Source: Diacronema lutheri (taxonomy: Eukaryota; Haptophyta; Pavlovophyceae; Pavlovales; Pavlovaceae). Taken from it: DNA of 64,000 bases. The stretch covers positions 1,054,001 through 1,118,000 of the forward strand of contig JAGTXO010000006.1 in assembly GCA_019448385.1 (NCBI GenBank). Direction: 5' to 3'. Positions 1 to 30,300 of this stretch are shown in pieces (the stretch's first letter is position 1; every line of letters begins with the position of its first letter). The notes below the pieces were generated by a model. That model did no database searches. It was not told where the DNA came from and worked only from the letters and a program-made list of their open reading frames with translations. The position numbers and the translations under genes were made by a program.

Positions 1-381
1 ATCAGGGGCACGATCGCGCCCCGAGTGCAGCGCGGGCCGTTCGGAAGGACGTCCTTGTGAGGGAGCTCTTCGCGTTTGGCGAGCGGGGGAGCACGACGCG
101 CAGCGTTGCTGCGGCGGCGTGCGGGCGGCGAGCAGCGGTCGGGCTGCTCGCGACGAGGCCGGAGCAGACGGCGCCGTGGCCGCCGGCGCAGGTGACGCGC
201 GCCGACGAGCCGTAGCGAGCGTCCGTGATCCGCACGGCGGTTGGAGCGGGCCGGCTGGTGCGGCGCGCTCGGCCACGGGTGGCGGCGTGCACGGTCGTGC
301 CGCGCGCGGCACGCGTCGCCAGCCGCGCGCGACCTGGGCAGAGCCCGCAAAGCGTCGACCGCTGCGCGGCTCGGCCGTGCG
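1..381. other. left edge, no supported gene
   Basis: This GC-rich stretch lies just past the stop codon of the giant Fanzor-containing gene (minus strand, stop at 382). Open frames exist on both strands but have the Arg/Ala-only composition expected of GC-rich non-coding DNA. In TnpB and Fanzor systems the guide RNA usually comes from sequence at or beyond the 3' end of the nuclease gene, so this stretch is the natural place to look for an omega-RNA. I cannot see one directly. Confidence 0.5.
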
Positions 382-760
382 TCAACGCCGGCCGCGCTTC
401 GGCCCGCGCGCGCTGCCGCCGCCGGCACTGGCGCTGGCAGCTCCGCGGGCGGGGGTGCGGGCGCGAGAGCCGCCGCCGCCACCGCCGCCGCGCCCGCCGC
501 CGTCGTCGCCACCGCCGTCGCCGCCGCCGCCTCCCCCGCCGTCATCGTCGTCGTCGCCGCCGCCGCCTCCGTCGCCGTCGCCGTCGCCGTCGCCCTCGCC
601 GCCGCCGCCGTCGCCGCTGCCATCGTCGTCGTCGTCGTCGTCGCCCTCGTCGTCGCCCTCGTCGTCGCCGTCGCACTCGTCGTCGCAGTCGTCGCCCTCG
701 CCGTGCACCATGCGCTCCTCACGCTCCCACACCTCGCCGCGCGCCCACCAGGCGAGCACG
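382..760 (-). repeat. GAC/GGC simple repeat coding the acidic tail
   Basis: Plus-strand GTC/GCC triplet runs code, on the minus strand, a tail of Asp and Gly with a few Glu after the nuclease module, then a Ser/Ala/Gly stretch and the terminal GPKRGRR. Acidic tails are unusual on DNA-cutting enzymes, and this one may be a protein-protein contact site or repeat-expansion noise. Confidence 0.8.
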
Positions 761-3700
761 AGGGCAAAGCGCTCAGGCGTCGACGTGGTGTCGCGCCCGG
801 CCGCGTGCGCCGCCATGTCGTGCACGTCGTAGAAGATGTTGCGCGCGGCGTTGTAGTCGCGGTGCACGGGCTTCTTGCCGCCGTTGCACGCCGGGCAGAT
901 GACGAGCGCGTGCACCGTGCGCGTGCCGCCCTTTGCCACGGGCAGGCGCGGGTTCTGCGCGAGCTCCGCGCCGCAGCGCTGCAGCCTGCCGCCCTTGGCG
1001 AGCCGCGGCATCGAGCAGTGCATCGACGTGTACGGCTCGGGCACGAAGACGGCCGCGACGCCGCGCCGCCGCAGCTCGCGCAGCAGCCCCACCTGGAAGG
1101 CGGGCGGCGCGCCCTTGGGCTGCGCGCCCTTGTGGTCGCGCAGCCACTTGCCCACGCACACGAGCAGCCGGTCGCGCGTCACGCCGTCGACACAGTGCGC
1201 CGCGATGAGCGCCTCGGCGACGCGCGCCGCGTTGGACCGCCCGCCGCTGTCGCGCCGCCAGCGCTCCTTCCGGCGCGCCGGCGCGTCGTACACGTGCTCG
1301 GCGGCGCGCTCGCGCACCCGCGCGCTCTCGCGGTGGAAGGCGATGTATTTGCCCGCGTCGAGCACCTTGGCGCTGTGCGCCTCGCCAAGCCGCGCCTCGT
1401 CCGCCTCCACGCTGAACTCCTCGCCGCGCCCGTCGGTGCGCACGCGCCGCCGCGCCGCGTTGGTCTTGGCCGTCTCGCGCGCAAAGCCCGCGGCGCGCGC
1501 GCGCGCGCGCTGCGTGAACTGCCGCCAGACGGCCGCCCGCCCGACGTGCGCAGAGTAGGTGGTGATGTTGCCCATGTTCGGGTCGGCCGCGACGACGACC
1601 GCCGCCTCGACGTCGATCGCCCGCCGCAGCTCGGAGCCGAGCGCGACGGCGATGCGCCCGTCCGGCCGGCGCCAGCGGTGCAGGACGCCCGAGCCGCCGG
1701 CCGGCGCCTGCGCCTTCGGCACGAGGACGGTCCCGACGGCGTGCACGGCGACGCCATCTGTCACCACCGACTTGACGGGCTGCCGGCCCGGGAGCGGCAC
1801 GCGCGGCAGCGGCGCGAGGCCAACCCACGAGCGCCGCGCGTGCCACGGCAGATCGGCCGGCGGCCGCTCGCGCCCGGCGTAGTCGAAGACGCGGTTGGAG
1901 ATGTCGAAGCGCGTCGCAAAGACCGCGTACCTGACGCGCACGTCCGACATCGGCGGGGTGTTGCCGTTTGTGCCTGTCCACTTGATCGGCTCGCCATCGT
2001 GGTCGCGCAGGTCCAGCGCCTTGAGCCGCGCGCGCAGCTCCTTGCGCTCGTCATCCGAAAGCGTCACCCAGATGGCGCTCGCGGCGAGGCGCACGTTGCG
2101 CGGCACCTGCGCGCAGCGCGCGGCGCGCGAGCGCGCGGGCGCGTGACCAACCTGGCCGCGGGGCGGCGCGCACGGCGGCGGCGCGCGCGCTTGGGCGCTC
2201 GGCGGCGGCAGCGGCAGCCACGCCTCGCGCGCACATTGTGCGTGCGCAGCGGCGCCACATTGTACCGCGGCGGCCGTCCGGTCAGCTGCGTGTGGATGTG
2301 CGCGAGCCGGCAGAGCAGCGCCTGCCCCTCGGCCACGTGCTGCAGGGTGCGGATCTGCACGAGGAAGTAGCGCGTCGTGTGCCGGTCGTAGTTCCACCTT
2401 TTCGTGGGCGTGCACTTGTAGTCGATCTTGTGGAGGACCATGTCGTGCAGGTGGCGGTCGAGCGCGGCGGGGCAGCCGACGCGCGCGCCCTCCACGTCGC
2501 CGCGCAGCAGCCGCTCGCACAGCTCGCGCACGCGCGCGTTTCGCTGCATCTCGGGCAGCGCGACGAGCGCCTCGTCGCGCTCGACTGCCGCGCGGACGAC
2601 GTCGCGGAGCAGCCCGTTCACGACGCGCGATGGGTGCATCAGGCACGCGGTGGACACCTGCGTCGCCTCCGCCTCGAGGATCTCCGTGAGGCCCACCGCG
2701 CAGACGGGCTGGACGCCCTCGGCCATCTCGCCGACGGCGCGCGCCGTCGCCGCCTTGGTCTGCGCGGCGGCTTGCTCGGCGGGCTTGCCTCGCGGCGCTG
2801 CACCGTACGTGCTCTCGTCCTTGTGCCAGCCGATGGCCGAGAAGATCGCACGGACGGATCCCTTGTCCATCGTGGTCGACGTGTGCACGCTGGTCGACGG
2901 GCCGCCCGACGCCGCGCCGACGGCCTGCGCGCTCGCCACCGCAGCCTCGTCGCGCACCACCTTGTTGATGACGCGGTACGCCTGTGTCGTGAGCCTGTGC
3001 ACGGCCGCCGCGATGCGCCGCAGCTCCTTCCGCGCACCGGGCTGCGCCGTCACCGCCTGCGGCCCCGCGTTGAGCGTCGAGCGCTTGACCACGAAGCCCG
3101 GGAGCACGCTGCCGCGCGTGCGCGCCGTCGCGCCGCCGGCGGCGCGCGCGCTCGGCGCAGCGGGCTCGTCCACGCGCGCGCGCTCGACGCCGCGCGCGCG
3201 GGGAACGCTCGGCGCGCGCGCGCCCGCGGCGTCGCGCGCGCTCGCGGCGGCACCCGCCGCGGCGCGCTTGCCCGCGGCGCCCGACTCGCCGTGCGCGCGA
3301 AGCGGCGCCGACGCCAATGCCGACGCCGCGCCCGCGCCGCCGCTGCCGCTGCCCGATCCGCCCGCGCGCCGCTTCTGCTCGTCGCGCGTCTTGCGGAACT
3401 GGGCGACGAGGTCGCTGCTCACGTTGGCCTCAGGCTCCCACGTGTCGGCGCTCTCGTCGTAGCCCCGCCACCTGATCCGGAACTGGAACGTCACCTTCTT
3501 GCCCGCCTTGCGGCGCTCGTCGACGACCGCCTCGACCTCGTACGTGCGCGCCTCCTCGTCGACGCTCGCGCCCGCCGCGCTCGCGCCCGTGTCCGGCCAC
3601 CCAGCGACCGTGCCGCCCAGCCTCTCGGCGGCCGCGCGCAGCTGCCGCTCGCGCTGGGCGGCCGCGGCGCCTCGCGCGACCAGCGCGGGCAGCATGCCCG

Positions 3701-6700
3701 CGCCGCCCGCGAGGCCGTGCGCGCCGACGCTGGCGGTCATCAGCGCGTCGAGGCACGCGAACGTTGCGAGCGCACACGCGCCATCGTCGCCGCCGCGCGG
3801 CTGCGAGCGCACGACGGGCGATGGCCGCGGCTCCCCCTCGGCCGCGAGCAGCGGCCAGATCGCACTGGCCAGCGCGACGGCATGCGCGCCGACCGCGACG
3901 GCCACGTCCGCGTCGAGCGGCGCAAAGTCGTAGCGCACGAGCGCGGCCGGGCGCGAGTCGTCCGTCGGCCGGTCGGCGACGAGCAGCCCGACCGGGCGCG
4001 GCGGCTCGCCGGACGGCGCGGCGACGGGCACGCAGAGGAGCACGACGAGCAGGCGCGGCGTGCCGCCGAGCAGCGCGCGCGCGGCATCCGCCCCGTCGGC
4101 TCCGCCGCGCGCGGCCGCGGCGAGCAGCTCGGCCGCGCGCGTCGGGCCCAGCGCCGTGCGCGCGTCCTTGCGCGCGCGTGCGCGCGCCGTGTACGCGGCG
4201 CAGGCGTCGTCGAGCACCGCCGCGCTGGGCGCGGTGCCAGTCGTCGCCCACGCGCGCAGCGCGTCGCGCACCCGCGTGACGATCGCCTGGTCGACTGCCG
4301 CCTCGCCGGCAGCGTGCGCCGGCGCGCACGCCGGCGGTGCGGCGGCAGGCGCGAGCGCGGGCGCGCCGTCGGCGCCGTCAACGCCGACGGCGCCGTCGGC
4401 GCGCCGCCACGCGAGCTTCGCCTCGATCTGCTGCCGGACGGCGTGGCAGTGCCGGTCGATGCCGCGCGCGTCGTCGAGCGCGGCCAGCGCGTCCTCAGCG
4501 GCGGGACGGCCGCTCGCGTCCGCGACGGCCTGCAGGCAGAGCAGCGCGGCCGCACGCGCGTTGCACGCGCTCTGCGGCTCGGGCGCGAGCGCGTGTTCGA
4601 GCTCGAGCGGCGACGCGCCTCGCGCCGCGGCGATCGCGTCCATCAGCACGTCCAACCGCTGCACCAGCGCCCTGTGCGCGTCGCGCGGCGCGCCCGTCGA
4701 CGGCGCGCGCGAGCGCGTCGCCACGAGCCCGAGCGCGCGCGCCGGCGCGCCCGCCGGCGTGTGCAGCACGAGCAGCGCCGCGCCCGCCAAGCTCGCGTTG
4801 CGCGTGACGAGCGCGAAGATGCGCGTCGCCTCGTGCGCGCCCACCGACGCCCAGATCGCAGCGCGATCGGCGTCCGTCTGCGCGTCGCACAGGTCGCGCA
4901 CGTCGTCCGGCGCGAGCAGCGCGCCGCCGCCGGCGGAGCGCGCGACGATCGCCCGCGCCTCCGCCACGAAGACGGCCTGCGGCAGGTCGGCGTGGCGCGC
5001 GTCGACGATGGCGCGCGTCGCGTGCACGCCGAGCTCCACGCCGCGGTAGAAGGCGCGCGCGTTGGCCGCGCGCGCGTGCGCCGGCCGTCCGTCCGCGTTG
5101 CGCCTCGCGCGCGCCTGCTTGCTCGTGCGCGCGAGGCCGTCGCGTGGCGGTGGCGGCAGCGTGGCGAGGAAGCGCGCGGCGGGCGGCGGCGCGCGCACGC
5201 CGCGCTGCCGCCGTGCGATGGCCGCGAGCCGCCGGCCCGCCGCGCTGCCGCCCGCGCCGACGTGCTGCCGGCGGCCGAGCGCCGCCGGTGGCGGCGGCGG
5301 CGGCGGCGCGGCGGCGGGCGGCGGCGCGACGGCGGGCGGCGGCGCGGCGGCGGGCGGCGGCGCGGCGGTGGGCGGCGGCGCGGCGGCGGGCGGCGGCGCG
5401 GCGGCGGGCGGCAGCGGCGGCGGCGCGGCGGCGACGGCAGCACCAGTCGGCTTGTCCGCCCACGCACCCGAGACTCTGTCCCAGACCTTGCCCCATGGCG
5501 CGCGCCCACGCGGCCGCGCGAACTGCCCCGGCTCGAGCGCCTGGCCGCGCTTGGCGGCGGCGGCGGCGGCAGGGGGCGGGCGGCCGGCGCGCCAGTCGAA
5601 GACAGGTGCAACCGTGGCGGCAGGCGCCGAGTGCCGCGCGTCGGTCACAGAGCGCGTGGTGCGCGCGGCGACCGTGGCACGCCTGGCGGGCGGGCGGTGA
5701 GCAGCGCCCGCCGGCGCGCCGGCGGGCGCGGCCGCCTCGAGCCCGGCGGAGGCGCCGCGCTTGCGCTTGCGCGTGCCGCCGCGCGTGCGCCTGCGCGCGC
5801 GCCCGCCGCGCGCCCGTTCGGCCTGCGCGTCGCCAGCCGCGTCGCCGGCCGCGTCGCCGCGCCGCACGTAGACGACCGCGAACGCCTCCTCGCCGGTCCC
5901 GTCGACGCCGCCGCGCGCGCGGCGCAGGACCGACCGCCACTGCAGCCGCCGCGCGCGGCCGGGCTCGCACGCAAACCAGCGCCCACCGCGCCTGACGACG
6001 GCCACAAAGTCGTCGTCGCGCCGCCCGCGCCGGCGCGTGCGCAGCAGCACGCACTGCACGTCGAGCCAGCCCTCGTGCCAGTCGGCCGTGCTGGGGGCGA
6101 CGCGAATCGACTGCGGGAGCTCGACGCCAAAGCCGGCGAGGCGCACGATGTGCGCGACGATGACGCTCGAAATGGCGGGGGCGCTCGACGGGTCGCCCGC
6201 TGCAGCGAGCACCGCCCCGCCCCAGTGCTCACGCGTGACGCAATCCGCGTCCTCGACGTGCACGTGCGCCACGCTCGCGCCGAGCTGGTGCAGCAACGCG
6301 CAGATGTCGGCGTCGACCGTCCTCTCCTCCTCGGCCGCCTCGGCCGTGCCGCGGGCGGCGGCGTCGCCTGCCGGCTGCCCGAGGTACGCGATCGCCCGCT
6401 CGACGGCCGCGCGCTCCGCACGCGCTGCGCTGTCGATCGCCGCATTGCCGACGGGCGCGCGCAGCGCCGCGATCGCGTCTTGCAACGCCGTCGCGTCGCC
6501 CGTCGCCGCCGCCGCCGTCACCGCCGCCGCGCTCGCGGTGCCGTGCGCGACGGCGTGCAGCGCGGCGGCGCGCGCGGCGGGGATGCGCCCGTCCAGCGCG
6601 AGCACGAGCGGCGGCCCGGCCGGCGTCTGCTGCCGCCGGTGCCGCCGGCTCGCAGCCGGGTGGTCGGCGCGCGCGCGCTCGAGCCGCGCGCGCCGCTCGA

Positions 6701-9700
6701 CGACGCGCGCCCAGAAGGCCTGCACCCTCGGCTGCGCGAATGCAAGCCAGCCGGCGCCGCGCGTCACGACGTGCACGACGATCCGGTCCTCGTGCCTGAG
6801 GTACTGCACGTAGAGCGCTTTGCTCACGCCGAGGACGTGCATGCCGAGCTGCAGCTGATCGCGGTGCGGCTGCGGCGGCCCGTCCTCGTGCGCCGTGGCG
6901 CCCGCCTTGGTGAGCGTCTTCACCTCGACGAGGACCTGCTCGTTGTTTTCGGGGAGGATGGCGAGCCCGTCCGGCGAGAAGGCGAACGGCGCGCTCTTGT
7001 CGTGCGGGTCCTCACGCACCATCGGCAGGTTGCACACGACGGTGATGCCGTACGCGGCCGCCAGCTTGCGCAGCGCGACGGCCTCGCCGAGGATGCCCGC
7101 GGTCGTCGCCTTGGTCCGCACCTCGCGCCGCCGCCGGTGCACGTACTCGTCGGTGAGCGTCTCGTGCGCGACGCCGGCGTTGTCGTTCACGACGTCGCCA
7201 ACCTTGCTGCCCGTGACCTCCTCCCATCGCTCGTCGTGCCAGCGCGGGCTGCGCTGCGCGGGCGCGCCCGCGCCGACGGCGTCGAGCACGCGGCGCAGCG
7301 CTGTGCCGTCGGGCGCAGCAGGCACGCGCGCGCGGTCCTGGGCCTCGCGAGCGTCGAGGACGCGGCCCGTAGTGGAATCTTGGGGTAGGTCGAGCTTGCT
7401 CGCCTCGCCGTAGCGGCTCTCCAGCTGGCGCGGTGCGTCGGCAGGGCCGCCGTCCGTGCGCGCACCCGACGCGCCCGCCAGTGCACGCGGCGCAGCGTCC
7501 GAGGCGCCCGCCGCGCCCGCGCCGCCGCCAATCGCGCCAGCGCACGCGCGCGCCGCGACCTGCGGACGGCCAGCCGCAGGGACCTCGTCCGCTCGGCCGG
7601 CCGCTGCGTCGGCCGTCCGCTTGGCCACCTCGCGCACGTCTCCGAGCGCGAGCGTGGCTGGCGCCGTCCAGCTCCCGTTGCGTTTGTCCCAACATTTGAG
7701 CAGCCCGCCAAGGAAGGGCGTGCCCGTCGGGCGGTCCTCGGGCACCTCCGCCAGGATCGCGTCGACGCGCAGCGCGGCCGCCACATCGCAGAACGCGCGC
7801 GCGGCGCGCGCCATCCGCTCGGCGCGCGCGCCGCCGTCGTCCGCCGCGCGGCGGATGGCGTGGCTCACGTGCGCGACGCGGAGCGAGACGACGGCGTGCG
7901 CCGGCGCGTCGGCGCCCGTGCCGAGCGTGTGCCGCCGGATGGCCAGCTGCCCATCGCCCATGCGCGGCGGCAGCGACGCGCACGCCGCGACGGTCGTCGT
8001 GCCGGCCGCGCTGTCGCACAGCCAGCTCGCCTCGCCGCCGCCCGCAAACTCAAAGGTCGCGAAGCCCTCGCGGCCGAAAAGCGCGACGAAGTGGTCGAGC
8101 ACCGCCTTGTTGATCGCGCGCGCCGCCGGCCGCGTCGATGCGCCGCGGGCAGCGCCACCCGCCGCGCCGCGCGCATCGCCGCACGTCGCAGGGCAGGTGC
8201 AGCCGGACGCGCGCACGCCGTCCGACCGCGTCCGCGGCAGCTCGAGCTCGCGCACCTTGGGGCAGAACCAGAGCGGGTTGGACGCCTCGAGGCACAGCAC
8301 GACGAGCCGCCCGTCCGTGCCGGCCAGCGCGCGCGCGTCGCGCAGCAGCTCGACGGCGAGCTCGGACGTCGCCGCGTGCACCGCCGGCTCGCCCGTCGCG
8401 CGGTCGGGCGGGAAGAGGCCGCCGCCGACGAGCGGGCTGGGGCAGCGGCCGAGCATCACGAGCAGCGGCGGCGGCGGCGTCTGCGGCGCCTGCTGCCCGA
8501 CCGCAGCCGCCGTCAGCCCGGCCAGGTCGGAGCTCGTGCGGAGGGCCTTGAGCGCGACGCGCGAGCCGGTGCCCGCCTGCTCGGAAAACGTGGCGAGCAT
8601 GGCGCACGTGCTCGCCCTCGCGCCGCACTGCCAGCTGACGCGCGCGAGGAGGCCTTCCAGCGTGTCGTTTTCGCGCGGCCGCGTGACCGCGTCGAGCGCC
8701 GCCGGGCCGAGCTGGAGGCTGCCGGGCGTGACGCACAGCACCGCCTCGTGGTAGGCGCGCAGCAGCTCCCTCGGCAGCTGCTCGGCGGGCGTCGCCGCCT
8801 GCCCGCCCACCCACCGTGCACCGTGGCCGCCGTCGCCCGCGCCCGCGAGCCGGACCGCCGGCCCGCCCGTGATCGCCGAGGTCGGTGGCGTGCCGAGCGC
8901 GTCGACGAGCGCGCGCACGGGCGCGACACGCCTGCGCGCAGCGTCCGCGCCGACGGCGAGCGCGGCGATCTGAGCGCCGTCCCATGCGCGCTCCCTCGCG
9001 TCGTCCCGCGCGGCCGCCGGCGCGGCGCCCGGCCGCGCGCCGGGCGGCACCGCGCACGCCGCCGCGACGACCTCCGCGCGCGCGCCGGCGGCGTCGGGCG
9101 CGTGCAGCTGCGCGAGCGCGCCAAAGAGCGCGGCGGCCGAGCGGTAGCGGCCGTGCGCCGCGACGAGCGCGTAGAGCACGCGCAGCGCGGCCACGCCCGC
9201 CTGGTCGGGCGCGTCGTCAGCGATTTGCTCGACCTCCCACGTGCGCGTGGGCGGCGGGCTGCCGTCGGCCGGGTCCGGACGCAGCGCCCACGCGCGCTCG
9301 ACGATCGCGTTGAACACGCCGTGCGCGGCGCCCTCGTCAAACTCGGCGGCGCCCGCCGCGTGCGCGCACCACCCGTGCACGCGCGACGTGGGCGCGTCCA
9401 CGGCGCGCTGCACGACGAGCACCGCCGGCCGGTCGACGCAGCCGAGGCTCACCGCCGCGTGCTTGCCCTCGAGCAGCGCCGCCGCCGCAGCCTCGACCAA
9501 GGCGTCATCAGGCGCGTCGCCGACGACGACGGCACAGCCGTCGCCGTACTCGGCCTGCATCGCGGCGACGCACGACGCGACAAAGTCGCCGCCCGCGGCC
9601 GCCGCGTGTCGCGCCGCCAGCATCCGGCGCGCGATGGCAAGCCAGACGTACTCGGCCGGCGCGCGCGCGGCGCGCGCGCGAGGCGCGCCGGCCGCGCCGC

Positions 9701-10955
9701 GTGCGCCCGCGCGTGCGCCTCCAGCGGCCGCAACGGCCGAGGCGGCTGGAGCGGCGGTGAGCGTGCGCCGCGCGCGCTTCGCCGGCCGCGTGATGGGCGA
9801 TGCACCCGCCATCGCACCGCCCGCAGCAGCCGGTGCGGCCGCCACAGCGCCCGCCGCAACGCCACTCGTCACGACGCCCGTGGCGGGCGGCGCGGCGGCG
9901 GACGTGGCCGCCTCGACGGGCGTCGCGCAACTACCGCCAGCGGTCGCGGACGCGCCCGGCGACGCGTCGGCGAGGAGGTGGCGCAGCACGCCGCGCGCGA
10001 GCGCGACTCGCACGGCGAGCGTCAGCGCGCTCAGGCGGTCGGAAGGCGAGGCGTCGCGCTCGGCGTCGGCGGACGTGGCGGCAGCAGGCGGGGCGGCGGG
10101 CGGCACGGCGGCGGGCTGGGCGGCCGCCGGCGCAACCTCGTCGGCCTTGGCCAGCCAGACGAGCCCGGCGACTGCGAGCACGACGCTGTACGCGCCGACA
10201 TCGTCACCCGCAACGCGCGCCAGCCGGGCGTGGGCGTCGGCCTCGGACACGGCGACGTGGAAGAGCACGTCGTCGCGGGCAGCTTGCTCGGCAAACTGAC
10301 GCAGCTGCTTGGCCATCGTCACGCCGGCGACGCACGCCTCGCCCGCCTCTGCCTCGACCTGCTCGTCCTGGCCGATGGCGGACGCGCCGGCCTCGGCGCC
10401 AGCGTCGAGTGTCCGGCGGCGCCCGAGGGCGAAGCCACGCACACAGACGCGCTGGAGGCCGCCGAGCGCGCCCGCCTTCTCGTGCAGCGCGCACGACAGC
10501 TCGACCACCGAGTCCACGCGCCTCGCGGCGGCGCCCCCCCGCTCGCCGCGCGTGGCCGCGCGCACGACGAACACCGTGAATTGCGCGCGCTTCGCCGCGC
10601 GCGCCGACGCGCACGCGTGCTTCAGGAGCCGGCAAAGCGCGGGCCTTTGCGCCGCTGCGCCCCGCGTGCACAGCAGCAGTTGGCCGCGCTCGTCGCCCAG
10701 CTCCTGCTCGACGGCGGCCTCGAGCGCGTCGTCCGTCAAATCGCCGTGCTCCGTCGAGGCGAGCGCGCGCGCAGCCGCGAGCGCCAGCTCGCCTGCGCCC
10801 GCGCGCCGCCGGCGGCGCGCACCGGCGGGCGCGTGCGGCGCCGACGCGTGTGACGACGCCGCCGCGTCCGCGCGCGCACACGCGGCGCGCAACGCCTCAC
10901 GCGCCGAGGCGGCCGCGCGCGCCCTGGGCGCGAGCTTCAAGAACGTGCGCGCGGC

Positions 10956-11028
<73 letters not shown>

Positions 11029-14000
11029 TCGCCCGCGTCGCCGGCCGGCGGCGGCGGTGGCGGCGGTGGCGGCGCGGCCACGGCGGCGGCAGCAGCGGCG
11101 GCGGCGGCGGTGGCGGCGGCGGCGGCGCCCAGCGCGGGCGGCGGCGGCGTGGCGGCGGCGGTGGCGGCGGCGGTGACGCCAGCGGCGGCCTTGGCGCCGC
11201 GCGTCTGCGGCGGCGTTTCGGCGCGATCGGGGCTGCCCCCGCCACGCACCGCGCTCGTGACCGCGCAGACGCCGCCCGGCGCACGATCGCTGGCCGCGCC
11301 GGACAGCGCGACGCGGAGGCGCTCGCCGACAGCGTACATGTCCGCCACGCTGAACGTGCGCGGCGCGGACGAGCAGCCCGCCGCGGCGAGCGCGTCGTTG
11401 AGCGCGCCCACTATCGCGAGGCCGCACGTCGCGCCACGCTGCGCCGCCTCGTTGAGCAGCAGCGCGCGGCGCACGCGCGAAATGTCGAGACCCGCCGCGT
11501 GCAGCGTGGCAGTTATCGCCTTGGCGAGCATGAGCGCCTGCCTGCAGGGCGACGCGAGCGTGTCGACGAGCACCGCGTCGTAGCGATGCTCGCCCGCGCG
11601 CGCGACGCGCACAAGGCGCAACGCGGTGAAATGGCCGGAGGCGAGCTGCGCGCCGTCGTCACCGCCCGCGCCGCCGCGCTCGTCCGACGGGCTCCACACG
11701 CCGATGACAGCCTGCGTTGTCGCCTCGCTGCGCAGGCGGTGCAGCAGCGCGGCGCGCTCGGCGTCGTCCTGAAACACCGCGGGTTGCGCGGCGAGCGGCA
11801 CGTGGCAGACATGCCCGCCGCCGGCCTGCCCGTGCACGCGCAGCACGACCTCGCAGCACGCGTCGACGGTTGAGGCGAGCATGTCGCCGCTGGCGATGCG
11901 CTCCACCTCTGCCTGCGGGAGGCCGGCGCTCGCGGCGGCGGCGGCCAGCCGGCGCGCAGCCGCGTCGCCCGCCCACGCAAGCAGCGCCGAGTTGGCGGGT
12001 TGGAGGGGAAGCTCAAGGGCGGCTGGTTCGGTGGCGGTAGCCTCGTTGGCAACGGGCACGTTGGCGGTGCGCGCGTTGGCGGCGGGCGCGGCGGCGATGG
12101 CTGGTGGGGCGGAAGACGCGCCCGCGGCGGCGGGCGCGGACGCGGCAGCGGCAGCGGCTAGTGGGGCGGGGAAAACGCCGTCGGTGGCAGGCGCGGAGGC
12201 GAATGCAGGAGCAACTAGTGGGGCGGGAAAATCGGCGGCAGGCGCGAAGGCGGATGCAGCAGCGGCTAGTGCGGCGGGGAAAACACCGTCGGCGGCAGGC
12301 GCGAAGGCGGATGCAGGAGCGCCCAGCGGGGCGCAGAAAACACCGTCGGCGGCAGGCGCGAAGGCGACAGCAGCAGCGGCCAGTGGAGCGGAGGCGCAGG
12401 GCCACGCGCGCGCCAGCCGTGCAAGCCCAAGCCGCGCGCGAGCGACGCACGCGCCGATGGCCGAGGCGGCGGCGCAGGCCACGACGTGGCCTGGCACCGG
12501 TGTGGCCAGCCGCTCGCGGGTGTGCACGTCGAGCCGCGCCCCACGCCAAGAGCGGCGGCGCGCTGAACGGAGGCGCGCGACCCCGATCGATCCGCCCGCG
12601 CACGCGCGCGCCGGCTCAGTGTGGCCAACGCGCGCCGCTATGCAAGGCGCGCGCGCGATAACGGCGGCTGTCGGCCGTGGCGTGCGCGTGGCGGCGCCGC
12701 GGCGACGGGCGCGGCACACGAGCCGCTCGGGCGCGCCGCCGCCGCGCGGCACGATGTCGAGCAGCACGGTCACGCCGCGCGCGCGCGCGACCGCCGTGCA
12801 CGCGAGCCGCACGGGCAGCGGCGGCCCGTCCGGGCGCGCGAGCGCCGCCACCTCGGCGTCGGTGAGGCTGTGCAGCTCGCGGCGCGCGCGCGCGAACGCG
12901 GCAATGTCCGCGCGCAGCTCCGCGTCCGTGCCGAGCGCGGCACGCGCGTGCACGGGGAGCGACGCGCGCAGCGCGTGGAGCACGCCGCCGCGCGCGCCGC
13001 GCGGCGCCGGCGCGCGCTCGCGCTCAGCGCGCGCGGCGCGCGTGAGCTCGCGCACCGCGCGCGCGAGATTGCGCCGCGCGGCCGCGACGGGAGGGCTAGG
13101 TGCGCGCGCGCGCCGGTTGTAGCGCGGCCGCGCCGAGTCGAGGGGCGGCGGACGCGGTGCGTACGCCGCGGCGCGGCCCGCGCGCCAAAAGGCCGGCGGC
13201 GGGCGCAGCTCCGTCGCGTCGACCGCGGCCGCGAGCGCGCCGAGCGCGGCGTCGCTGTCGCCCGCCGCGTCGGCCGCGTCGACGAGCACGAAGAGCGCGC
13301 CGAGCGCGCGCGACGCGGCCGCCTGCGCGGCGGTGGGGCGGGCGCAGGCAGCGACGCATGCGGCCGCCATGCCGCGCGCCGCGGCGAACGCCGGTGACGT
13401 GACGGCCGCGCCGATGGCAACGGCGGCGGCGGCGACGGTGGAGGCGGCAGCGCCGGCGATGGAGGTGGCAGCGGCGGCGGCGCTTGCCATCGCGCGGCGC
13501 GCGAGACGCGAGGCGCCACCGACCGCCGCCGCCGCAGCGCGCGCTGCGCGCGCGCCGGTGGCGCGCATCGTCGCCGCGCCAGGCGCCGCCGCGCCGACGC
13601 CGCCGGCGCCCGCGCCGTCGCCGCTCTCGGCCGTGCAGGGCTCCGATGGCGAACCCGGCGTGCGCTGGCGCGTGATGCGCGCGCCGAGGCGCGCGCTCCG
13701 CGCCGCGCGGCCGGCGACGTCGAGGAAGCGCCGTGCGCGCGCCGCGCGCAGGCCACGCGCGCGCGGCGGCGCACCGACAGGCGCCGAGCGCCGCGGCGCG
13801 CACGCCGGCGCGTCGCTGTCGGGTTGCGCAGCGCGCGCGCGGGAACTCGGCGCGGCGTGTGCGGGCGGCGGGCGCGCGCCCGCGCGGCGCAGAGGCGCGA
13901 GGCGCCGGCCGCAGACGAGGCGTGTGCGCAACCAGGACGGCGAGGGCCGCAGGGCGCCGTCGACGTCGCGCATCGGCGGGCCGCGAGCCCGCCGCGCAGC

Positions 14001-17000
14001 CGTGCGGCGCGCGCGAGGCGCTCGGCGGCGCGCGCGCCGCACGGCGCGCGCGGCGGCGCGCACGCCAGCGACGGCTGCGGCCACGCCGCGCGCCAACACG
14101 GCCGCGGCGTGCGCCATCGCACCGAGCACGGCGCGTGGCGCGCCGAGCAAGCGCAGCAAGCGCGACGCCGTCGCGCGCGCCGGCGCACCGTGTGCAGGGG
14201 CCTCGCCAGCGCCAGCACCGACGCCGCCATCGCCGCAGCCGCAGGTGGCGTCGCCGCCGCCGCAGGCGTCGCGACGGACGCCGCCGCCGCCGAAACAACC
14301 GCCGCACACGTCGCCGCCGACGTTGCCACCCCAGCCGCCGTTGCGTGCGCAGGTGGCTGCGGCGCGTGCGTGCGGGAGGCGTGCCGTGCGGCGCGCATCA
14401 CACGGGCTGCGCGACGCGAGCGACGCCGCCGGGGTCCCCGCTGCGCCAGGCGCGCCGTGCGCGCCAGCCTCGCCGGCCTCGCCGGCGCGCGGTCGCGCGC
14501 TCGCCTCGACGTGGCCGCCTCCGCCGCCATCGCCGCCGTCGAACCGGGCGGCGGAGGGCTGCCGCTCGAACCGCTCGTCGGCGTCGGCCGCCACCGCCGC
14601 CTCGCGCTCCGCCGCCGCGGCGGCCGCACGGCGCGCGTGGCGGAGCGCGCGGCCGCCGTCCGCTGCGCGGCGTGGCGGCGCGGGCGCGGGCTTCGGCGCG
14701 CGCGGCCCCTCGGCGCGCTCGCGGAGCACGGCGAGCGGCGTGCCCGTGGCGACGCTCGTGCAGACGCGCCGCAAGGCGGCGCTTACGCACGCGTGGACGA
14801 CGCGCGCCGTCCGCTTGTCGGCGGCGCGCGCGGCGCGGCGCGCGGCCTTGGCGGCGGCCTTTTTGGCGCGCCTCTGCTCCGCCTGCTCCGACAGCGCGCG
14901 CGCCTGGCGCTCGGCTGCGAGCGCGTCCTCGGGCGAAACGGTCGGCCTCGGCGGCCGCGCGCGCGCGCTGCGACGCTGCGCGCTGCGGCGGTCGGACGGC
15001 GGCTGCCGCGGCGGCGAGGACGGCGAGCGCGAGCTCGGCGTGGGCGACCAATCGCCGCTGACGGTTGCGAGCGGCGCAAACGGGTTGTCGTCCCCGCGAC
15101 CCGCGGCGTGCGACAGTGCACGCGGCGTCGGGCGCCGGCCGACCGCTGGCGGGCCCCACTCGGACGGCGGCTCCGAGGGCGAGCGCGCCGTCGGCGCCGC
15201 GCGTTGCGCGGCCGGCGGCGCCTCCCGGTCCAGCGCCGCCTGCTCTCTCGCCGCGGCCTGCTCGTCACCCTCCGGCACGCCACGCGGCGCGAGCACCGCG
15301 GTGGCGCAGCGCGTCGCGTTGAGCAACGCCGCCTCCATCTGCCGCACGCTGGCCTTGGCGCACGCCACACCCTGTCTCGCCCGGCGCAGCGCCTCGTGCG
15401 CGCGGCGCACTTCCGCGTCGGCATCTTCGCGCATGCCAAAGTGCGCCTGTTGCAGCCGCAGGTCCGCAGGGCGCCCCTGCGCGCGAGGGGCACGGGCGCG
15501 GCGGCGCGCAGGTGACGGAGCTGGCGCGCCGTTCTGCGCTGCGCGCACGCCAATCGACGGGCGCGCGCGCGGCGGGGCGCGCGCGCGCGCGCGCGCGCGC
15601 GCTGCCTACCCAGCCGCCGGCCGGCTCGCGCGAGCGCGCCAGCTGCTCCGCCGCCTCGGCGTCGAGCACGCGCTGCTGCGCCTCCTCCTCGCCCAGTGCA
15701 GCGAGGTGCAGCCGGCGGGCTGCCTTGCGGCAGTTGCCCTCCGCCTTGCCCACGGCCTTGCGCGCCGCGTCGACGGGGTCGTCGTTGGCTCTGGCGCGCC
15801 TGCGCTTGCCCTTGTCGGCGGGCGGCGGCTTGGCGCGCTGCAGCGTGCCGAGCGCGTCGTCGGCTCCGCGCGCGGCCGCCCGCGGGCGGCGGGCCCCAAA
15901 AAGCGCACCGGTCGCCGTGCGCGCCGCGCAAGCAACGACCAGCGCTGACATGCCGGCGAAGACCGCACCGCCCAGCGCCACGGTTGCCACGATGCGCAGC
16001 GTCCCGTGCGCAAGCTGCGCTGCCTCCGCCGCTTTGGCGGCCTCGCGCGCGCGCGCATCGGCGGCTCTCATCTCGTGCAGCAGCCCGGCCGCGCCGCTCG
16101 CGCCGTCGCGGCCGCGCGCGAGCTCGCACAGCACCGCCGCCGCGCGCCGCGTGGGCTCGCGCGCGAGCAGCTGCGCGCCGCCGTCGGGGCGCAGCTTCTC
16201 AACGAACTCGACAAACGTCGCGTCGCGCCAGAGGGACATGCGGAAGGCCCTGTGCACCGCCCCCTCCTGCTCGCGCATCCGCCGTGCCGCCCGCCTGCCG
16301 TCGCGCGCGTGCGCGTGCGCGGCCGCGTCGAATCCCGCGACGCCGCGCTGCGCGTCGCGCGCGGCCGACGACGGCGCCGCCGCGCTGCCCGCCAAGGGCG
16401 CCGCAGCGGCGACGCGCGCGTGCGGAGCGACGGGATCGCCGGCGGCCGGCGGCTCGGCGCGCTGCGGCGTGCCGTTTGCTCCGCGCGCGGCCGTCCCGGG
16501 GGAGATGGCCGCGATGGCGCCGCCAGCCGCGCCGCGCGCCAGCCACGCGCATAGGCTGCCGACGAGCTCGCCGAGACCCCCGACGGTCGCCGCGGCGGCG
16601 AGTGCGCCGGGCTTGCCGGCCGACAGCGGCTCGCGAGCGTCGTCGTCGCAGCCGCCGGCACCCGTCTTGGCGAGTGCGTCGCGCTCGCCCTCGACGCCCG
16701 CCACGACCGCCGCCCCTCCGTCGTCCGCCGCGCCGGCCGCGCGCGCGGCCGGGCGCAGAGGAGGCGTGCCGGTGCAGCCGTCGCCGCTCGTCTTCGCCGT
16801 TTCCTCCACTTTGGTCACTTCGTCGCCACCTGCGCCATCTCCGACGCCGGGGCCCTTGGTCACGCTTGCCGCCATGCGCGCCGTGCCCGCCGGCCAGCCC
16901 GCCGACTGCTCGAGCGCGGCGGCGAGCGGCGCGACGCGCGTCGACTCGGGCGCGCTCTCGTCATCGGGCTCGAGCGCGTTGTGCAGGCGCGCGAGCGCGC

Positions 17001-19284
17001 GCTCGACGGCCGCGGCGCCACTGCCGGGGGCGCGGCTCGCCGCGCGCACCGCGCGCCGCCAGGCCGGCGCGAACATGAGCGCCGGCTCGAGCGCCGCGAG
17101 CGCGCGCGCCTCGCGCGCGTCGCTCGCGCCGAGGCGCGGCGGCACGCGCGCGGCTCCGCGCGGCGCGGTGCCTCGGAAGCGTGGGCTCAGCGTGTAGGCG
17201 AGGTGCTGCGGCACGCCGCGCGCCTCCGCGCGCGCGCGTCCGTCCTCGACCTCGCGCCGCGCCTTCGCGATCGCCGGCGTGGCGCGCGCGAGCCAGTCGG
17301 GGTCGGCGGGCAGGTGGATCACGACGAGAATCGGCGCCCAGTCCAGCCGCGGGTTCTTGTGACGGTCGGGCACGACCCACACGAGCAGCACCGTGCCCTC
17401 CGCGCCGCACGCCGCCTCGTAGATCCTGGGCTGCGAGCGCCAATCGGGCCTGACGCGCAGCGCCCGCGCGTGGTCGATGGCGGCGGCGCGGTCGCCATTG
17501 AAGTGAACCGTCGTCACCTCGCCGATGACGGACCGGCCGGACCGCCAGCAGAACACCGCGTCCGCCGACCCGCCGGCGATGGCCGCGAGCGATTCGGGCG
17601 CGGCGAGCCGCGGCAAGCCCTCGAAGGCGGCAAAGTCCTCGTGCGCATTGTACACGCCGCCCCAGCCGTCGTGCGCGTACGCGCGCGCGGCCGCTCGTAC
17701 CGCGCGCGGCTGGTTCTCCACGCCCGACGTCATGTGCCATGTCGTCCCCGCGAAGCCGGGCTCGCCCAGCTCGGCCCGCACGACGGTACCGTACCCCGCG
17801 CCCTGCGTCGGGGCGGCGAGGTGGTGCATGCCCGCGCCGGTCACGCCCTCCGTGCGCTGCCGCGTGACGATCGTGCCCGTCGCGTGCGCGAAAAGCGTGT
17901 CGACCACGGCGGGCGCGCGCCCGCTGTTCGCCCGTAGCCGCGCCCTGCCCGCTTTTAGCTGCTCGGGGTCCTTGGCGTCGTACACGCGCGCGTCCGCGTC
18001 GCCCTCATCAGGCGCAGTGTAGACGCAGCGGCGTTCGAGCGGCGCCGAGCCACCGCCGTCCGCCGCCGCCGGCGAGGTTGGCGCCGCGCCCGCCGCCACC
18101 GCGCTCGTCGCCGCCGTGCCCGTCGCCACCGCCGCAGCCGCCGCGCCCGCGGGGTCGTCGTCCCCGTCCTCCGCGCCCTCCCCGTCGTCAGCGGTGGTGG
18201 CGTCGCCATCGTCCCCGTCGCCCTCGCCCCCGCCGAGGCTGCTGAATGGTCGGGGCCCCCACGCCGAGGCGGCGCGCCGCTGCGGCGCACGCGGCGGTGG
18301 CGCTCGCGACGGCGGCCTTGGCGCCGCCGCGCCGCGCGGCCTGGCCGCCGTCGACAGCGCGCGGCCTGCAGCGCCCGTGAGCGCGTCGAGCGCGGCCGTG
18401 CGTGCGATGCGGTCGTCGGGCGCGCGCAGCGCCGCCTCGACGGCCTGCAGCAGCCCGTCGGGCGCGGATCCGCCGACACTGGCATCGCACGCCTCGGCGA
18501 GCCGCGCGGCCTCGGCGAGCCGCGCGGCCTCGCGGGTGAACGGGCCGAAGCGCCTGGCGCGGTCGCCGAGCAGAGCGCCGATGGCGGCGCGGAGCGTGCG
18601 CGCGCGGGTCTCCTCGTACGCGGCCGTCGTGAGGCGCGCGAGGCGCGCGTCCAAAGCCTTCTTGATGTCGACAAGGACACTCGCGCGGCGGCCGTAGAGC
18701 GTCGATGCGCTCGCCACGACCTCGGCCGCGACTGTTGCCGCGGCGAAGCAACACGCGGCCCCACTCTGCGGGGGCGCCTTGAAGGCATCGATGGGCGGCG
18801 CTGTTCTGCCGATGCGCTGCGCAAGCTTCTTGATGAGCACGCCGGCCGCCGTGGCGTACGCCGATTCGCCGTTGCCCAAGGTGCGCGAATCGGCGAGCAG
18901 GGCGAGCGCGGCGCCGGGCGGCGCGCCGCGCTGCGCGGGCGGCGCGAGGAGCAGGTACGCCGCCGTCCAGTGCACGAGGCCGCTGGACGCGCGGAGGCAG
19001 AGCGGTAGCACGACCACGAGCACCTGCCCAAACCGGTCCGCATCCGCGCATGCTTTGCGCAGGTTGCGCAGCGCCACCTTGAGCGCATGCTGCGAGCACC
19101 CCGTGTCGCCCACCCTAACCCTGCTCGTGCCGAAATCCGCGTAACGCAGCAGGGCGATGAGGCAAGTGGATGGGACCACGTGGGGGTGGGTATCTCCCGG
19201 CGACAGAATGGTGCTGAGGGCCAGCGAGAAACTGTCCGAGCCGCCCCGCCCGCCGGGCAAAGCGTCCTTCACGGAGTCCTCCAT
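382..19284 (-). CDS. giant multidomain polyprotein ending in a Fanzor nuclease
   Basis: I model one gene with exons 19284-15610, 15476-2235 and 2106-382 (about 1225 + 4414 + 574 = 6,213 residues). Both introns (15477-15609, 133 nt, and 2107-2234, 128 nt) are GT-AG, phase 0 on both sides, and each explains a frame change between otherwise continuous open frames. Order of modules: Ulp1/C48-like protease (residues about 35-195), a nuclease-like segment (about 500-650), a coiled region with one hydrophobic helix, Ala/Pro-rich linkers with further Ulp1-like modules (about 2390-2610, 4785-4885, 5030-5150), YqaJ exonuclease (about 3990-4155), chromodomain (about 5203-5243), Fanzor (about 5370-6075), acidic Asp/Gly tail and a final GPKRGRR basic motif that could be a nuclear signal. 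I know no described family with this architecture. The start at 19284 is the first in-frame ATG; an upstream exon is possible because a ccacag acceptor-like site sits just before it. Confidence 0.7.
800..3060 (-). other. Fanzor (eukaryotic TnpB-like) RuvC nuclease module
   Basis: The last about 700 residues match the TnpB/Fanzor plan across intron 2. A helical N-terminal half (KRWNYDRHTTRYFL and flanks) leads to the RuvC domain: Asp of VAADPNMGN (about residue 5814), Glu of FVPEPYTS (about 5996), a Cys cluster (HCSMP, RCGAE, ICPAC) as target-nucleic-acid-binding zinc site, and Asp in HRDYNAARNI (about 6056). All three catalytic acids are present. Fanzors are RNA-guided DNA endonucleases. An unusual point is that the first Cys pair is C-S-M-P instead of CxxC. 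Confidence 0.82.
2107..2234 (-). other. intron 2 of the giant gene (inside Fanzor)
   Basis: The exon ends in CGCACGCACAAT, then GTGCGCGCGAGG begins the intron. It ends in CTGCGCGCAG at 2107 and coding resumes with GTGCCGCGCAACG. Length 128 nt, phase 0 on both sides. Removing it restores one continuous Fanzor reading frame, whereas translating through gives Arg-rich nonsense and a stop. Confidence 0.75.
3420..3550 (-). other. chromodomain (in giant gene)
   Basis: Residues about 5203-5243 read YEVEAVVDERRKAGKKVTF, then QFRIRWRGYDESADTWEPE. This is the canonical chromodomain: an initial YxVExI-type strand, F-x-I-x-W-x-G-Y, and D-T-W-E-P-E with the Tyr/Trp/Trp cage that binds methyl-lysine. In transposon proteins chromodomains steer integration to marked chromatin. 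It is followed by a Ser/Gly-rich linker leading to the Fanzor module. Confidence 0.88.
3700..4060 (-). other. Ulp1-like module 5 without an obvious His (in giant gene)
   Basis: The segment reads RPVGLLVADR, then ALVRYDFAPLDADVAV (Asp about residue 5076), then SQPRGGDDGACALATFACL (Gln, and Cys about residue 5126). Asp, Gln and Cys fit a C48 active site, while the strand that should carry His has Val/Gly. It lies directly before the chromodomain. Confidence 0.4.
4500..4820 (-). other. possible Ulp1-like module 4 (in giant gene)
   Basis: The segment contains a hydrophobic strand (ARALGLVATRS) and then EPQSACNARAAALLCLQAV, which resembles the Gln...Cys helix of Ulp1-like proteases. The His and Asp are not obvious. 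It is one of several look-alike segments in the giant protein and is reported because the pattern repeats. Confidence 0.25.
5270..5430 (-). repeat. 18-bp coding repeat giving (PPPxAAP)n
   Basis: Tandem copies of a GGCGGCGGCGCGGCGGCG-like unit on the plus strand code PPPAAA/PPPTAA blocks in the giant protein. It is a flexible linker between the YqaJ-containing half and the downstream helical region. Confidence 0.7.
5850..6140 (-). other. USP-like C-terminal segment without the His (in giant gene)
   Basis: The protein reads DDDFVAVVRRGGRWF, ACEPGRARRLQWRSVL, then EEAFAVVYVRR. This follows the last third of ubiquitin-specific proteases (GHYVAYVR, Trp, DD, then a final aromatic-YRR strand), but Phe sits where the catalytic His would be. 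It may be a remnant or a ubiquitin-binding version. I see no matching Cys box upstream. Confidence 0.3.
6690..7180 (-). other. YqaJ-type PD-(D/E)XK exonuclease module (in giant gene)
   Basis: Residues about 3990-4155 carry all recognisable YqaJ/lambda-exonuclease landmarks: the helix Glu in GILGEAVALRK (about 4023), Asp in FSPDGLAI (about 4061), the Glu-x-Lys pair in VLVEVKTLTKAG (about 4076) and the Gln of HRDQLQLGMHVLG. This is the single-metal-site 5'-3' exonuclease fold used by phage and large DNA virus recombination systems, and by some eukaryotic transposons. Active-site residues look intact. Confidence 0.8.
9170..9660 (-). other. possible catalytically dead Ulp1-like module 3 (in giant gene)
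   Basis: The protein here reads VHGWCAH, then a TWEVEQI strand, then DAPDQAGVAALRVLYALV. The layout recalls a Ulp1 fold with the His region and a Gln, but Val stands where Cys would be. If the reading is right the module has lost activity. Evidence is weak and rests on the repeating pattern in this protein. Confidence 0.25.
10960..11200 (-). repeat. GCC/GCG trinucleotide repeat coding poly-alanine and poly-proline
   Basis: A run of about 22 alanine codons (10965-11031) is followed by Pro- and Ala-rich sequence, all from repeats of GGC/GCG on the plus strand. It separates two parts of the giant protein and probably varies in length between strains. Confidence 0.85.
11340..11990 (-). other. 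Ulp1/C48-like cysteine protease module 2 (in giant gene)
   Basis: This is the best preserved Ulp1-like module inside exon 2. The order is His in SGHFTALRL (residue about 2509), Asp in AVLVDTLAS (about 2530), then Gln and Cys in AAQRGATCGLAIV (about 2575). Gln-x4-Cys-Gly is the signature of the C48 active-site helix. All three catalytic positions are present, so it may be active. The expected substrate is SUMO or another ubiquitin-like modifier, or the polyprotein itself. Confidence 0.6.
12090..12400 (-). repeat. about 60-bp coding tandem repeat in the giant gene
   Basis: Five imperfect copies of a roughly 20-residue unit, read on the minus strand as variants of PAADGVFxAPLxAxASAFA. Each copy carries the conserved core gggaaaacgccgtcggtggc or a close variant on the plus strand. 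Copies differ by several substitutions and some length change, so the array is not newly formed. Confidence 0.75.
13440..15476 (-). other. coiled-coil and Arg/Ala-rich linker (in giant gene)
   Basis: The first part of exon 2 encodes a charged helical stretch (QQAHFGMREDADAEVRRAHE and onward), then Ser/Pro- and Arg/Ala-rich sequence with a Gly/Cys-rich patch near 14180-14360. I see no catalytic motif. Composition matches low-complexity linkers elsewhere in the protein. Part of this stretch could be spliced out in vivo. Confidence 0.4.
15477..15609 (-). other. intron 1 of the giant gene
   Basis: On the minus strand the exon ends in codon TGG at 15610, followed by GTAGGCAGCG. The intron closes with CTCGCGCGCAG at 15477, and exon 2 resumes in frame with GGGCGCCCTGCGG. 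Its length (133 nt) is not a multiple of three, so it accounts for the frame change between the 1,339-codon and 4,494-codon open frames, which overlap here. The intron is dominated by alternating GC. Confidence 0.65.
17330..17800 (-). other. possible degenerate PD-(D/E)XK nuclease segment (in giant gene)
   Basis: Residues around 560-650 read GSADAVFCW, then GRSVIGEVTT, followed by helical and beta-rich sequence ending in VLLVWVVPD. The layout Asp, about a dozen residues, then Glu-x-Thr resembles the PD-(D/E)XK core with the catalytic Lys replaced by Thr. It also resembles the arrangement of the clear YqaJ module later in the same protein. It may be a decayed or non-catalytic nuclease copy, or a chance similarity. 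Confidence 0.3.
18700..19182 (-). other. Ulp1/C48-like cysteine protease module 1 (in giant gene)
   Basis: The start of the giant protein shows the residue order of the Ulp1/SENP (C48) fold: His105 followed by Trp (SGLVHW), Asp132 in LADSR, Gln173 in PPQSG and Cys178/179. The spacing (about 27 residues His to Asp, then Gln five or six residues before Cys) is usual for the family. C48 enzymes cleave SUMO or similar ubiquitin-like tags and occur in several eukaryotic DNA transposon families. Assignment rests on motif order and hydrophobic context, not on a search. Confidence 0.55.
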
Positions 19285-19803
19285 CTGCAGACTGTGGGCA
19301 CGTCAGTGTCCGGATGGCGGCCCGGATGATACTTGGGAGAATTTACATGATGCCCTGGAGAATGCCCCGCTCTCCCACAACCAGGACCCGCCAGCGCGCC
19401 GAGCCTACTCGTTTGCCCGCGCCGCCTCTCTTTGCGCGCCCGAGCGCGGCCTCCGAGCGCGGCCAACGTCCTCCGGGGGCGTGCATCGTGGCTGCTCGGA
19501 GGGGCTGCGACGCGGCGAAAGCTCGCTGCGCGGCCGCAACGTGAGCGCGCGCGCGCGGCCGCGCGCCGGCCTGCGCTGCTCTGCACGGCCGCGCGCCGGC
19601 CTGCGCAGCCTCGTCGCGCAGCGTGAGCGCGAGCGCGCGCGAGGCGAGCTCGGCGGATGGGTGCGCGGCGGCGTTGGCGGCGGGTGCGGCGGCAGGCTGG
19701 GCGGCGGGTTTGGACGGAGAGTGTCGGGGAAGAACGGGGCGCATCCTGGCTGGGAGTTGGACGGCGCCCACCACGCGCTGGCGGATCCTGGTTGCCACCA
19801 CCA

Positions 19804-19822
19804 CCCCCCCCCCCCCCCCCCC
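19804..19822. repeat. poly-C run (19 C)
   Basis: A homopolymer of 19 C on the plus strand, followed within 20 nt by gacgaggaccag, a candidate 3' splice site. One of five such runs between 19.8 and 24.6 kb. Confidence 0.9.
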
Positions 19823-21190: not shown

Positions 21191-21219
21191 CCCCCCCCCC
21201 CCCCCCCCCCCCCCCCCCC
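21191..21219. repeat. poly-C run (29 C)
   Basis: Twenty-nine C on the plus strand, followed 37 nt later by gtgcgccag, a candidate 3' splice site. Confidence 0.9.
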
Positions 21220-21622
21220 GATCGGCGGACCGATTGCGTTTTGGTGCGCCAGGCTCAATGCGCCATCGCAGTGGCGGGCCCGCAGACGCAGACGCTGACA
21301 TGCCCAACGCTGGGCACTGAGGCCGCAGGCCGGCCCTCCTGGACCTGGCGGGCGAGCTGCCCGCGCAGCGGCCACGCGAGCCTCGCACTGACCGTGGCGG
21401 TCGCTGCCACCGTGATAGCTGCGGGTGCGGCGGCCTTGGCCCCAACCCCATCATCCGTCTTCATCCCCGCCCTGCTCGCGCTCGCGGCCTACGTCGGCAA
21501 TCCCTGCACCGGGATCCGCCCCGCGAAGTCCACACAAGACTTATCCGTGCTGCACGCCAGCCGCGCGCGCCGACGCGCGCCGCTCCCACACGCTCACCTC
21601 CGTTTCCGCGGGCGGCCCAACG

Positions 21623-22213: not shown

Positions 22214-22249
<36 letters not shown>

Positions 22250-30267: not shown

Positions 30268-30300
<33 letters not shown>

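Follow-up and report, generated by a model that had tools for sequence, protein, structure and literature searches.

A giant repeated element of Diacronema lutheri with a predicted 6213-residue frame joining a Fanzor-type nuclease to a RecE-type exonuclease and a chromodomain

Introduction

Can a single protein combine an RNA-guided nuclease with a recombination exonuclease of phage type and a domain that reads chromatin, and if so, what would it do for the DNA that encodes it? The question is raised by a locus of the haptophyte alga Diacronema lutheri, for which we analysed a window of 64,000 nucleotides (the whole stretch of DNA considered here). An earlier note on this window, made from its letters alone, described a polyprotein spread over three open reading frames and proposed that it belongs to a self-contained mobile system. 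Here we examine whether the frame is maintained, what its domains are and what kind of DNA carries it, using the assembly to which the window belongs (43,492,796 bases in 103 contigs) as the basis of comparison.

Results

One predicted gene from three open frames

Three minus-strand ORFs (15265-19284, 2064-15548 and 382-2646), joined at the exon limits in Table 1, give a frame of 6213 codons. Each gap runs from GT to AG and joins its exons in phase 0, as the earlier note had described. Stops within the joined frame, which it had named as telling against a single protein, were looked for and there are none. The codon-phase score stays positive as far as the splice sites, drops out within each gap and is regained in the new frame, with 60-nt resolution; because it was trained on exon 2, only exons 1 and 3 give independent evidence. 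The signal is weak at the start of exon 2, and a coarser scan agrees overall. The GT and AG of predicted intron 2 are kept in 12/12 copies that cover it, one of which (L028) has a 2-nt insertion within the intron. Those of predicted intron 1 are kept in the two copies covered (2/2), with a 6-nt deletion inside the intron of copy C3; intron 1 is absent from copy C4, and ten further loci (L021-L030) stop short of it. The sequence statistics thus support a reading of the three frames as one protein.

Maintenance of the frame in diverged copies

Long open frames are cheap at the base composition of this locus (GC 75-83%; an antisense ORF of 1716 aa is also present), and the frame was therefore tested with diverged copies. 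Copy C4 is 97.4% identical to the window over 12 kb. The part of exon 2 that it shares has no in-frame stops, and all of its indel clusters (6/6) are multiples of three; the two other frames gain stops. In this comparison exon 2 has a dN/dS of 0.79 (other frames 1.10-1.13), with values by block of 2.27, 0.74, 1.19, 1.21 and 0.59. For the Fanzor exon it is 0.44, from 4 and 5 changes. Elsewhere in the element, the same copy gives 1.85 and 1.13 for the PIF1 parts and 1.32 for a USP-like ORF that has acquired a new stop in C4. Comparison with C49, an old deleted derivative, yields 17 synonymous and 20 non-synonymous changes in the Fanzor part (ratio 0.42; other frames 1.07 and 1.19), and 0.72 and 0.55 for two parts of exon 2. 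The differences from C3 are few, and ratios are 1.24 for Fanzor (2 and 7), 0.73 and 0.79 for exon 2, and 1.43 (3 and 11) for the part of exon 1 compared. We conclude from these alignments that the frame is kept and that Fanzor looks to be under constraint. Constraint on the rest of the polyprotein appears modest at most, and weak or absent in places.

A 31-kb element in more than one hundred copies

The polyprotein CDS is the left part of a repeat of ~31 kb, a surrounding unit that the earlier note had missed. The element totals 31,043 bases, extending from 24 bases to the left of window base 1 (G000:C89:1053977) to window position 31019. Its left end starts GTATAGATGG, its right end closes with TATATAG, and outside these limits the flanks are unrelated among copies. 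The termini read CTATATACGG...CATCTATAC.

Across the whole assembly the Fanzor exon recurs in 92 scored matches (from 423 first-look candidates) with 98-100% identity, and a PIF1 search of the genome returns at least 150 matches. From the 150 chromodomain matches listed in the genome, at least 146 copies were assigned to the element, by score rather than by reading each one. Frames of at least 3000 codons occur in 115/146 of these, of at least 4000 in 102/146 and of at least 5300 in 7/146. Copy sizes vary from ~31.0 kb at C75 (from match positions) to 21.6 kb at C4, where ~2.4 kb of unrelated sequence replaces window 12.0-22.2 kb; C3 lacks most of window 16.9-24.6 kb. All three copies compared share the right end, the helicase and the RecE-chromodomain-Fanzor part, and the N-terminal part therefore appears to be the exchangeable one. 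Fanzor and PIF1 matches on C86 proved to have no similarity to the window and were set aside.

Thirteen contigs begin or finish within roughly a dozen bases of an element end. C1, C5, C6, C10, C12, C26 and C29 start there, and C3, C8, C43, C71 and C89 end there, as does C14 to judge from match positions. Since several contigs begin or end in this way, we considered a telomere-linked element. This was rejected, because copies in the interior of contigs are complete at both ends and C9 starts with a different repeat (CCCCTA); given the coincidence, the assembly was probably broken by the element.

Beside the insertion lie host genes (32654-37648) for a Glu/Gln-tRNA synthetase (+) and the proteasome subunit RPN5 (-). 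Further along the window are an almost perfect 24-bp tandem repeat of ~11 copies (43730-43988) and a FAD-binding monooxygenase-like ORF (61031-62962, +).

Table 1. Features of the element in window coordinates
Feature	Position	Strand	Basis
Mobile element, in-window part	1..31019	- (main coding sense)	Sharp ends common to copies with unrelated flanks
Tail, Fanzor stop to element end (405 nt in all)	1..381 in window	-	Element end, stop position
Exon 3 (aa 5640-6213 + stop; nuclease core)	382..2106	-	ORF, coding phase, profile match
Fanzor region (aa ~5340-6110; split by intron 2; N-terminal limit by eye)	694..3134	-	PF07282, Cas12f1, motifs
RuvC-I Asp; Glu (PEPYTS); RuvC-III Asp (RDYNAARN)	1582-1584; 1036-1038; 856-858	-	Zinc-ribbon cysteines between
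Predicted intron 2 (GT...AG, 128 nt)	2107..2234	-	Coding phase lost then regained; dinucleotides kept
Exon 2 (aa 1226-5639)	2235..15476	-	ORF, coding phase, diverged-copy comparison
Chromodomain	3390..3542	-	PF00385 7.5e-12, 45.4 bits (cut-off 25.1)
RecE/lambda-exonuclease (YqaJ-type) domain	6690..7265	-	phrog_434 4.2e-15, motifs
57-bp tandem repeat within exon 2; more copies in C3	12125..12391	-	Repeat scan
Predicted intron 1 (GT...AG, 133 nt)	15477..15609	-	Coding phase lost; splice dinucleotides kept
Exon 1 (aa 1-1225; ATG at 19284; no family match)	15610..19284	-	ORFs, coding phase, profile searches
USP/UCH-like ORF; stop in copy C4	22654..23448	-	PF00443 5.9e-9
PIF1 helicase, Helitron-like, with 330-aa N-terminal part without family	25246..27577	-	Pfam, PDB matches
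Nested inverted repeats (arms 89-207 nt), between divergent gene units	28134..29020	.	Repeat scan
Coding-like stretch with frame changes, no family match	29435..30306	+	Coding scan, profile searches

Domains of the polyprotein

The exonuclease, chromodomain and nuclease that the earlier note had named were all recovered by profile and motif searches. The exonuclease is recognised by a profile of the lambda-exonuclease/RecE family and has the corresponding motif set (SPRWHDERWEEVTGSK, SPDGL, VEVK and QLQLGMH). Two further models fall below their cut-offs, TIGR03033 at 1.7e-5 (25 of 68 bits) and Pfam YqaJ, applied to the exonuclease slice, just so (6.1e-4; 20.5 bits, cut-off 22). The chromodomain passes its Pfam cut-off and has CDYL, HP1 and others as relatives in PDB (best 5.9e-9). 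By eye, it keeps Y, W and Y at what we take to be the positions of the aromatic cage.

Evidence for the Fanzor/TnpB-type nuclease comes from the TNB/zinc-ribbon region and three RuvC acidic positions, which we assume to be the catalytic ones. PF07282 (Cas12f1-like_TNB; RuvC-III/zinc ribbon) matches at 835-1074 with 2.4e-6 and 28.0 bits (cut-off 26.3); the NCBI TnpB model gives 13.7 of 100 bits, far under its cut-off. A PDB search with the single sequence is weak (Cas12f1 at 0.47). When this nuclease is combined in a two-sequence profile with a second Fanzor family present in this genome, Cas12f1 is matched at 6.6e-5, followed by two RAP-domain chains at 0.016, which are probably chance matches, and then by TnpB-type chains at 0.06-0.07. 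Of 13 fetched loci spanning at least some of the core, 12 contain ADPNMGN, PEPYTS and RDYNAARN together, and the deleted derivative L082 has two of them. The two Fanzors align with 26% identity over 334 columns (E 2e-8), within exon 3. This alignment covers the nuclease half only, and the earlier argument that the second junction is forced, since the fold would be split across it, is accordingly plausible rather than settled. The second family is represented by 20 fetched loci, many of them nearly identical, whose open frames reach 1779 codons; the single copy read does not resemble the polyprotein in its upstream part.

The proposed Ulp1-like proteases found no counterpart. Ulp1/C48 (PF02902) matched neither whole proteins at E<=1 nor slices of 241-341 aa at E<=10, a PDB search of the N-terminal ORF gave no Ulp1-like relative, and none of the genome's nine C48 matches lies inside this element copy. 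An H...D...Q..C order is visible by eye in several stretches that bear no resemblance to one another when compared module against module. With whole-protein, slice and module-against-module comparisons all empty, these modules are not supported, and the suggested polyprotein processing or SUMO editing depends on them. The only protease-like homology found is that of the USP/UCH-like ORF outside the polyprotein.

Helicase, repeats and tail

The PIF1 region contains several frame changes (introns or damage), and its pieces were searched apart with the frames unmended. Pfam matches fall in two frames (3.6e-14 and 1.5e-24). By PDB match, with no tree, the nearest relative is the Helitron transposase Helraiser (5.3e-26), ahead of 6hph, presumably a human PIF1 chain (5.3e-7). 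The interval with nested inverted repeats also holds short telomere-like CCTACAC repeats, and its version in C4 is reduced.

In TnpB and Fanzor loci the nuclease lies near the element end, and the 3' tail beyond it is the usual place of the guide-RNA scaffold. The Fanzor stop, 405 nt from the element end, matches this layout. The tail has no Rfam match, and the last 122 nt have no unusual fold (z 0.24).

Ends and candidate transposases

The hallmarks of DDE transposons, a terminal inverted repeat (TIR) and a target-site duplication (TSD), are both lacking. No duplication was found in the nine copies paired by position and orientation (9/9). Words shared by the flanks near the junction, with those under 3 nt counted as 0, had a mean of 2.67 in matched against 2.13 in mismatched pairings, and maxima of 4 against 5 nt. 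DDE cut-and-paste is unlikely on this account. Read in the inverted sense, the termini agree, by eye, only in 7/9 last bases. In direct orientation TATAG stands at both ends, a pattern known from recombinase elements: the left end reads GTATAG in 17/18 junctions (the remaining one GTTAG) and the right end TATATAG in 13/14, that of C3 being without the last G. Two palindromes of 18 nt are subterminal, a perfect one 47 nt from the 5' end and one with a single mismatched pair 26 nt from the 3' end, a feature shared with rolling-circle elements. Helitron1 ends (TC...CTRR) are absent. For an asymmetric inverted repeat (ATIR) of the Helitron2 type, shuffles did as well or better in 235, 49, 47 and 75 of 300 trials at 8, 10, 12 and 15 nt.

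Profile searches of the scanned ORFs, a set that leaves out short ones and most of those antisense to the polyprotein, detected neither a Rep or DDE domain nor a tyrosine or serine recombinase, although recombinases of high divergence would go unnoticed. PF00589 (phage-integrase-type) has 16 matches in the genome, all of them outside this element copy. The Helitron Rep (HUH) profile PF14214 likewise found nothing in the element ORFs scanned; its single match in the genome, at G000:C63:35738-36019, is a candidate partner in trans. The element is mobile, as more than 100 near-identical copies, precise ends and unrelated flanks attest. Its description as self-contained is unproven, because no transposase was found.

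Discussion

We read the element as a giant (~31 kb), high-copy, recently active, non-DDE transposon, probably Helitron-related and replicative, whose polyprotein helps to copy it. Our confidence in this reading as a whole is about 50%. Copying would proceed not by DDE cut-and-paste but by replication that is single-stranded or linked to recombination, in a rolling-circle-like or break-induced manner. Fanzor, guided by an RNA read from the element 3' end into the flank, may cut the empty sister or target site, after which the RecE-type exonuclease would resect the break and the PIF1 helicase drive copy synthesis. The chromodomain could meanwhile tether the complex to chromatin with methylated histones. 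The strand nuclease or recombinase that initiates the process might reside in the family-less parts of the element or be supplied in trans. Of the activities suggested in the earlier note, RNA-guided cutting and resection are supported at the level of domains with motifs, and chromatin targeting at that of a good chromodomain; the actions themselves are what this scheme supposes. A cut-and-copy role for Fanzor with single-strand transposons is already in print (PMC10432273, in the portions available), and the part of Pif1 in break-induced replication is described as established (PMC10279920, likewise).

Several other readings share part of this evidence. The element may be a Helitron-derived, non-autonomous giant that kept the PIF1 half of RepHel and lost the Rep half, with the polyprotein as captured cargo and a Rep encoded elsewhere moving it in trans. 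This would account for the Helitron-type helicase, the absent target-site duplication, the two subterminal palindromes and the one Rep match elsewhere in the genome, and Chlamydomonas is reported to have non-autonomous Helitron2 elements with Fanzor1 (PMC3627910, in the sections seen). However, the ends and insertion context resemble neither Helitron1 nor, as far as those sections go, the TTTT target of the Chlamydomonas elements. Candidate ATIRs do not stand out from shuffles. Frames of at least 4000 codons in 102/146 copies are also much for passive cargo, although the copies may be young. We regard this reading as tentative and less likely than not; it overlaps the preferred one, and the likelihoods we attach to the two are not exclusive. 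A Crypton-like element, mobilised by a tyrosine or serine recombinase, would leave as a circle and recombine at a short core, which would explain both the TATAG at each end, with its near-uniform junctions, and the missing target-site duplications. Cryptons have terminal direct repeats of 4-6 bp and some carry a C48 peptidase (PMC3212892, in the passages at hand). Here, however, the ORFs scanned lack either recombinase domain, the PF00589 matches lie elsewhere, and the last G is missing at the C3 right end. We think this origin unlikely. Bolder still, and in our estimation a long shot, would be a class of giant eukaryotic transposons free of any transposase, in which the Fanzor cut is followed by the element's own RecE resection and PIF1 copying under chromodomain steering, and the machinery amounts to one 6213-residue protein and a helicase.

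With RecE exonuclease, PIF1, Fanzor and USP, the element is reminiscent in gene content of the large DNA viruses of algae, and it could be an endogenised DNA virus or polinton-like element instead of a transposon. We consider that very improbable: capsid, packaging and polymerase matches number 0 in the ORFs scanned, and the ends are uniform and precise in the copies read. Moreover, three scans of IMG/VR viral contigs with exact peptide patterns from the Fanzor, RecE and helicase parts, which would detect close relatives only, found no relatives. A different doubt concerns the polyprotein, which might be three close-lying separate genes, for an N-terminal protein, a RecE-chromodomain protein and Fanzor. 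Both junctions are predictions from sequence, the first in-frame ATGs lie 42 nt into exon 2 (15434) and 156 nt into exon 3 (1950), and in the 21.6-kb copy different sequence stands in place of the N-terminal third. Against this, the coding phase reaches the splice sites from both sides to within 60 nt, and the splice dinucleotides are kept in the copies covered. Exon 3 alone would leave ~170 residues before RuvC-I, fewer than in the second Fanzor family (whose start is uncertain), and seven copies have, according to the frame listing, a single frame of 5300 codons or more. Separate genes seem to us rather improbable.

If the single frame is correct, it links an RNA-guided nuclease with a chromatin reader and an exonuclease of the kind that phages use in recombination. 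If expressed, it would offer a naturally occurring design for inserting very long DNA into chromatin under RNA guidance. The 146 copies of 21.6-31 kb would, if all full length, make up 3.2-4.5 Mb of a 43.5 Mb genome. With a culturable alga and many young copies, what Fanzors do for their transposons becomes testable.

Among known systems, bacterial IS200/IS605 elements with TnpB have an RNA-guided nuclease near the 3' end together with TnpA. The present element has a nuclease of the same superfamily in the same place, but it is eukaryotic, its nuclease is fused and no TnpA was found. With Helitrons and Helitron2 it has in common a helicase closest to Helraiser, the lack of a target-site duplication and subterminal palindromes; unlike them, it lacks TC...CTRR ends, and no Rep domain was found in the ORFs scanned. 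Candidate ATIRs do not exceed shuffles. Cryptons (PMC3212892, in the parts consulted) likewise have a short terminal direct repeat, here TATAG, with no TIR and no TSD, whereas this element is 31 kb long, carries Fanzor and RecE, and has no tyrosine recombinase that we could find. Some LTR retrotransposon polyproteins have also gained a chromodomain and an exonuclease (PMC6338049, in the excerpts available), but theirs is DnaQ-like and of another family, whereas here Fanzor is present and reverse transcriptase and integrase were not found. Fanzors of mobile elements, as described in the sources available in part, show the D...[TS][TS]..zinc finger..RD motif order seen here, and their hosts include non-DDE elements (Helitron2, possibly Crypton). 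The hosts described there differ from an element of ~31 kb without a recognised transposase, and the Fanzors themselves from a nuclease at the C terminus of a 6213-aa frame that also includes a RecE exonuclease and a chromodomain. In the passages checked, mostly of non-subscription literature, we found no published Fanzor that is fused with either a chromodomain or a RecE/YqaJ exonuclease; in the passages of two papers that name both chromodomain and Fanzor, the two words stand apart. The cut-and-copy idea itself is already printed, and what appears to be new, on the evidence of the predicted frame, is the presence of an RNA-guided nuclease and a resecting exonuclease in one chain.
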